A DNA stretch of 64,000 bases, taken from contig JAQWZF010000023.1 in assembly GCA_029253585.1 (NCBI GenBank), forward strand, positions 62,001-126,000. The letters run 5' to 3'. Each line of letters begins with the position of its first letter. The stretch's first letter is position 1. The notes below the pieces were generated by a model. That model saw nothing but the letters and a program-made list of their open reading frames with translations, did not search any database and was not told the DNA's origin. This DNA is from Gammaproteobacteria bacterium. Its GTDB lineage: Bacteria > Pseudomonadota > Gammaproteobacteria > Pseudomonadales > Pseudohongiellaceae. Shown piece by piece: positions 56,975 through 57,307 of the stretch. The translations under genes were made by a program, and so were the position numbers.

Positions 56975-57307
56975 TTAAGGATTTCTAACAACAGACGGAA
57001 AACCAATATTCGTGGTGGCAGCGACTAGTAACGACTTATCGATTTCCTTGCTGAAGAAAATCACTGTCGCTGTTTCGTCATCTAGATCTACTTCAACCTT
57101 TCTGACGCCTTGAACTTTCTGTAGTGAGTTGCGCACGGCAACAACACAACCGACTCAAGTCATATTTTGCACATCGAGAACGACGGCTTCTTCGCCGCGC
57201 TGCAAGGTGTCAGCAATATCAGCATTTGCAATATTCGACAATAAGAACAACACCGCTATAAATGTCATCTCAATTGTATTGCGGGCAAATGATTTAAAAT
57301 ATTTCAA
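56975..57307 (-). CDS. merP: MerP-like metallochaperone with in-frame TGA at the first metal-site Cys (candidate selenoprotein)
   Basis: Read through one TGA (57155-57157), this is a 110-residue exported HMA-domain protein. The signal peptide ends SNIANA-D. The metal loop reads DVQNMT-[TGA]-VGC, where MerP has NMTCxxC. After it, VRNSLQKVQGVRKVEVD, ETATVIF and a final IGFPSVVRNP match MerP strand-helix order to TAA at 56975-56977. Position 51 is therefore probably selenocysteine (U-V-G-C). A 5-bp stem with a 5-nt loop starts 12 nt after the TGA. The start is TTG at 57305-57307 with AGGAG ten nt upstream. Without readthrough only a 50-residue leader would be made. Alternatives are a nonsense mutation or a base error. 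Confidence 0.7.
57128..57142 (-). promoter_or_regulatory. Candidate bacterial SECIS hairpin
   Basis: On the mRNA, GUUGC-CGUGC-GCAAC forms a perfect 5-bp stem with a 5-nt loop whose second base is G. The loop begins 17 nt after the UGA. Bacterial SECIS elements are generally described as an upper stem of at least 4 bp, a small loop with G in the first two places, and 16-37 nt from UGA to loop. All three criteria are met. Confidence 0.55.

Follow-up and report, generated by a model that had tools for sequence, protein, structure and literature searches.

A MerP-like gene in the window, the whole 64,000-nucleotide stretch of DNA analysed, carries an in-frame TGA where the first metal-binding cysteine belongs, and this UGA is almost certainly decoded as selenocysteine (Sec), judging from sequence comparison. 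We base this reading on the sel genes and tRNA-Sec of the host genome, a TGA shared by all copies in the genus, an invariant hairpin core, and the cysteine found in every MerP-like match read outside the genus. The product, here called SeMerP, is very probably a periplasmic selenocysteine-containing metal carrier whose synthesis would be directed by the hairpin and which would pass a metal, likely Hg(II), to MerT. The coordinates of the features are collected in Table 1.

Table 1. Features of the SeMerP unit and of a second candidate selenoprotein. Positions refer to the window unless a locus is named.
Feature	Position	Strand	Remarks
Ldi-like Tat-type protein, 616 aa	57347-59197	minus	first gene of unit; PF18566, TIGR01409
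SeMerP, MerP/HMA-like CDS	57307-56975	minus	in-frame TGA as predicted Sec (NMT-U-V-G-C); TAA stop
TGA (predicted Sec) codon	57157-57155	minus	first metal-binding Cys position; TGA in 28/28 clade copies
SECIS hairpin core (candidate), GTTGC-CGTGC-GCAAC	57142-57128	minus	stem 57142-57138 with 57132-57128; loop 57137-57133
MerT, inner-membrane mercuric transport family	56929-56570	minus	PF02411, E 1.2e-25, 90.2 bits (cut-off 32.9)
HMA(UxxU)-thioredoxin candidate selenoprotein, loci L236-L255 and others	L249:1423-2166; L053:1298-1627 (minus); L233:2482-3192		

An in-frame UGA conserved within one genus

The SeMerP frame comprises 111 codons, namely 50 codons, the TGA as codon 51, and 59 further codons followed by the stop. 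Its TTG start is supported by an ATG at the equivalent place in the closest relative. Inspection by eye showed a Shine-Dalgarno-like AAGGAG 10 nt 5' of the TTG and a hydrophobic N-terminus; the mature protein would be periplasmic. When read through, the product matched the Pfam HMA domain PF00403 (E 6.3e-13, 49.3 bits, cut-off 24.8), with the UGA aligned to the Cys of homologues, as in a selenoprotein gene. The frame and this match bore out the preliminary description of a MerP reading frame with a single TGA in place of the first NMT-C-x-x-C cysteine. An annotation that takes the TGA as a stop truncates SeMerP at residue 50.

Homologues were collected from 58 relatives in a first search, from a wider set of 84 same-genus genomes, and from 369 genomes of the class. 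The first search returned a best match with one TGA in 11 genomes, including that of the window. In the genus set, SeMerP was found in 27 of the 84 genomes as 28 copies (E<=3.3e-29), each with TGA at this codon. Six weaker genus matches (E 3e-20 to 2e-14) were stop-free, and the four of these that were read all encoded Cys; one further weak row proved to be the N-terminus of a MerA, its TGA lying 5' of the MerA start. Identity among 11 aligned SeMerPs fell to as low as 39% with the TGA kept, and the residues after the UGA were strongly conserved, including the second Cys, a VAVRNSL stretch and a GFP motif.

Across the class, an HMA-type match at E<=1e-6 was detected in 192 of 369 genomes. Apart from the window's own row, ten class rows flagged for TGA among the matches listed were considered as MerPs with TGA outside the genus and rejected, as all ten had Cys at both positions of C-x-x-C. 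A tree built from 27 Sec rows and 32 Cys rows placed the two types on opposite sides of one branch (support 98/94), a result to be read with caution given the program's warning of few columns (67) and a long-branch join.

A downstream hairpin and the selenocysteine machinery

The perfect 5-bp hairpin claimed in the preliminary description was present, with a GUUGC/GCAAC stem that begins 12 nt past the TGA and a CGUGC loop at 17 nt. The pattern TGA-N12-GTTGCCGTGCGCAA, with <=2 mismatches allowed, occurred once in the window, compared to 0.02 occurrences expected from shuffles. Among the 28 genus copies, the core GTTGCCGTGCGCA was identical and identically spaced, while flanking synonymous sites varied; the same 13 nt were invariant across 32 loci, which comprised 24 distinct sequences. 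Synonymous diversity over codons +5 to +9 was zero in these 24 sequences (permutation over codons, 3e-5), compared to a mean of 0.57 and a minimum of 0.19 for 25 other conserved-residue codons. A perfect 5-bp stem (G-U allowed) occupied the hairpin position in 24/24 Sec genes versus 1/32 Cys genes, and some 5-bp stem was found in the wider neighbourhood in 9 of the 32 Cys genes.

As given in the accessible text of PMC13188914, the bSECIS model has a loop of 3-9 nt, a stem of 4-16 bp, a distance of 16-37 nt from the UGA, a G in the first two loop positions and an MFE <= -7.5. The SeMerP hairpin falls within these bounds, with a loop of 5, a stem of 5, G as the second loop base, a distance of 17 nt, and an MFE of -9.6 kcal/mol for the 39-nt stretch that contains it. 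Folding energy did not set the hairpin apart from shuffles in the four stretches compared (z between -0.93 and +0.27), and the core with its 5-bp stem reached by itself -4.0 kcal/mol. The minimum-energy fold included the SECIS stem in 13 of the 24 sequences, and for the window's own 43-45 nt it was a different stem. The stem hardly varied: two of the 24 sequences had one G-U wobble, and we detected no covariation or compensatory change. The case for a SECIS element is thus made by nucleotide invariance, not by energy. A search of Rfam returned nothing at gathering score and three chance-level matches (E 2.4-6.6), and the SECIS core had 0 matches in viral contigs.

All four components of the Sec machinery were identified in the window's genome, a draft of 3.35 Mb that is 94% complete: selA (567 bits, cut-off 268), selB (396.6 bits, cut-off 242), selD (280 bits, cut-off 125), and a tRNA-Sec (score 64.5, gathering 47) to which ARAGORN assigned anticodon TCA. 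An objection from missing sel genes therefore does not hold, and the UGA would be decoded by SelB with tRNA-Sec. Of the 37 genus genomes in the first sample, taken with or without SeMerP, 31 had selB at E<=1e-60, as did 4 of 21 genomes from other genera of the order. Sec use is a trait of the genus, so the co-occurrence of SeMerP and selB in 10 of the 11 SeMerP genomes of the sample is expected rather than diagnostic, and counts as weak evidence. Genome G032, counted among the ten, gave a partial selB match below the curated cut-off, and G008, which is 65% complete, carried SeMerP and had no selB match. The selD match (G000:C21:32579-33493, L018) lies inside a 759-aa open frame, versus 311 positions in the family model, which suggests a fused domain.

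Two readings that deny selenocysteine its main role were weighed against these data. In the first, the gene is a pseudogene or carries a sequencing error, and the TGA is either a real stop or a miscalled TGC or TGT, as might be suspected in a draft of 42 contigs. Recurrence of the TGA in 28 of 28 copies excludes a read error in practice, and neither a corrected base nor decay among homologues, the outcomes named beforehand as damaging to the selenoprotein reading, was found; instead, conservation of both protein and RNA continues past the TGA, with an invariant hairpin core. We rejected this explanation on the shared TGA and the synonymous constraint, and consider its probability negligible. 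A regulated stop, in which the 50-residue product is the normal one and Sec read-through is minor and selenium-dependent, would suit the modest stability of the hairpin core, but is very unlikely given how strongly the residues after the UGA are conserved and how little of the metal-binding domain, nearly all of which would be lost, a 50-residue product retains.

Gene neighbours and a second candidate selenoprotein

SeMerP is the middle gene of a three-gene unit. MerT, whose first hydrophobic segment by eye contains a pair of Cys, followed SeMerP in 26 of 28 copies (as a fragment in G009 and as two frames in G467). The exceptions were G032, whose contig runs on for 515 bases in which no MerT was found, and the second G443 copy, where a MerR intervenes. 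Upstream in the window, at a distance of 39 nt, is the Ldi-like gene, which was directly upstream of 23 of the 28 SeMerP copies, including the first G443 copy, where it is cut by the contig start, and G468, where it occupies two frames; it was absent from G032, G002, G010, G431 and the second G443 copy. A convergent sulfatase gene (PF00884) lies on the other side of the unit.

The upstream protein is Ldi-like by family (PF18566, E 3.7e-13, 50.1 bits, gathering 26.1), and its activity is putative. A Tat signal was recognized by TIGR01409 (18.5, cut-off 16.7), with the Pfam Tat model just under its own cut-off (22.1 versus 22.7). Similarity to Ldi structures (PDB 5HLR, 5G1U, 7AD2) was weak, covering ~115 residues around two Cys nine apart (E 1.7e-4). 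Those structures have 371-397 aa, compared to 616 aa for the window protein, which has the Tat signal and a C-terminal C-x-C-C tail in addition. The two Cys aligned with the structures are presumably catalytic.

An alignment scan for the Ldi-like protein over a genome collection with one genome per species (84,980 species) returned 64 loci, mostly from marine-type Gammaproteobacteria (Pseudohongiella, OM182, other Pseudomonadales), along with three Acidobacteria, one Longimicrobiales, two Alphaproteobacteria and one Pseudonocardia. A MerP adjoined the Ldi-like gene in 21 loci and was of the Sec type in all 21; none was found near the remaining loci, a few of which have <1 kb after the gene. 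We considered the C-x-C-C tail as a marker of SeMerP loci and rejected it, as 61 of 62 loci have it whether or not SeMerP is present (the 64 minus L127 and L129, whose matches were cut short); the tail thus belongs to the Ldi-like family. It recalls the C-terminal SCCAG of a MerA in L058. The only tail with a lost Cys (FACC for CxCC) was in L225 (6610-8454), from G441. In L093 (5001-7289), the Ldi-like gene is followed by MerC (PF03203, E 2.2e-12) instead of SeMerP and MerT.

A second conserved selenoprotein candidate in the genus combines an N-terminal HMA-like domain with a thioredoxin domain and has two in-frame TGAs (U-x-x-U), with the motif GMMKSxGGVTU(L/M)SUP in most copies. Eighteen of the 84 genus genomes yielded 22 matches, each with two TGAs; the window's genome gave no match at E<=1e-10. 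The copy in G441 (L253), the genome with the FACC tail, is broken. An NCBIfam scan of one full-length copy reached no cut-off, that of NF041115 included. A mer-type gene lay within 1.5 kb in 4 of the 20 loci read, namely MerC (L239, L249), MerT/MerP (L245) and SeMerP (L236), and the G443 copy is ~5 kb from MerC. Downstream lies a conserved hairpin in which 87.5% of cells paired and one pair was doubly changed; in half of the rows the two outer pairs failed in this register.

The likely metal and the known families

Selenium binds mercury very tightly. SeMerP is most likely, on its sequence, a carrier of soft metal in which the ion, Hg(II) being the best candidate, would be held between Sec and Cys of U-x-x-C and handed to MerT. 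Its best single-domain PDB match was MerP 1afi (75.2 bits, E 4e-20), with single copper domains at 58.0 bits or below, and among NCBIfam models MerP scored 59.7 versus 47.3 bits for CopZ.

No MerA above cut-off was found in the window's genome (best 377.9 versus 454.45), and a 718-aa MerA-like oxidoreductase there was rejected as below cut-off and devoid of the C-terminal Cys pair, so the unit appears to work without mercuric reductase in that genome. Among the 27 SeMerP genomes, only four (G010, G446, G443, G465) had a MerA above cut-off, and each of these lies within 1 kb of a separate Cys-type MerP; G447 and G449 carry SeMerP along with a stop-free MerP and had no MerA above cut-off. Since MerA adjoins Cys MerP, mercury reduction goes with the Cys type in this genus, and SeMerP-MerT usually forms a unit of its own. 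One SeMerP copy of 28 was near a MerA, and that of the window was not. The exception is an island on contig 180 of G443 (L233, 2482-12240) that encodes the UxxU-thioredoxin selenoprotein, a MerR-type regulator, MerC, SeMerP, and MerR-MerT-MerP(Cys)-MerA. There, Sec and Cys MerP stand side by side with SeMerP after MerC, which keeps mercury plausible.

It is possible, if the less probable case, that SeMerP is a selenoprotein for something other than mercury, such as Cu(I), Ag(I) or selenol redox chemistry, with the MerT-like protein moving that substrate. The finding that 23 of the 27 SeMerP genomes have no MerA passing the cut-off, and that in the other four MerA adjoins a Cys MerP, fits this alternative, as do the score below the TIGR02052 cut-off (see below) and significant matches to copper chaperone and pump domains. 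Against it stand the MerT neighbour in all but two copies, the copy that adjoins MerC and a complete mer operon, and the higher score of MerP over copper domains when compared domain for domain. The mercury-type role put forward in the preliminary description thus gained from the adjoining MerT and lost from the missing MerA; it is plausible rather than proven.

SeMerP scored 59.7 bits against TIGR02052 (MerP), whose curated cut-off is 92.55, and is therefore called MerP-like rather than a member of that family. It shares the HMA domain and a neighbouring MerT with classical MerP (TIGR02052; PDB 1AFI), but has Sec-x-x-Cys in place of Cys-x-x-Cys and, in the window, lies outside any MerA operon. 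The top NCBIfam match by E-value was NF045683, a MerT/CopZ fusion-like heavy metal transport selenoprotein (69.9 bits). Both parts of that family, MerT and the HMA domain, are shared, but they are fused there and encoded by two separate genes here, which scored 69.9 and 58.0 bits against a cut-off of 375. As the true family, NF045683 was rejected, with 0 of 398 genomes of the phylum over its cut-off. NF041115, the UxxU metal-binding (seleno)protein, is likewise HMA-type (52.1 bits, cut-off 95), but has two Sec (UxxU) compared to UxxC in SeMerP.

The selenoprotein kind is not wholly new, as NF045683 and a MerP in PMC2398784 precede it. In the accessible part of PMC2398784, the 2008 Global Ocean Sampling survey lists a selenoprotein "Mercuric transport protein MerP" with 2 sequences from 1 sample. 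This is a marine-plankton selenoprotein of the same name, given as a table line without a motif and with 0 Cys homologues. Reviews of 2022 and 2026 include in their lists a selenoprotein of MerT type as well as a "putative mercuric reductase" with UxxU; the word MerP is absent from their main texts. The expectation that surveys had listed mercury-transport selenoproteins was thus right. Beyond the table line, this gene is unmentioned in the accessible portions of the open-licence literature, including PMC13188914, PMC9312934 and PMC12013277. What is new is the three-gene unit of Ldi-like protein, SeMerP and MerT in a genome without a true mercuric reductase.

A bolder proposal, which we regard as improbable in its entirety, is that the unit forms a soft-metal relay distinct from classical resistance and operating without mercuric reductase. 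The Tat-exported Ldi-like protein would free or capture periplasmic soft metal or organometal via its two conserved Cys and the C-x-C-C tail, and SeMerP would carry the metal to MerT, or to MerC in some relatives, with the UxxU HMA-thioredoxin of the genus serving the same metal economy. The occurrence of Sec and Cys carriers in one genus allows a direct comparison of their mercury affinity and hand-over speed. In the accessible parts of the sources above, a MerP-type Sec carrier had been represented by that single survey entry at most; the present gene is conserved, has a defined hairpin and is usually accompanied by a partner transporter.
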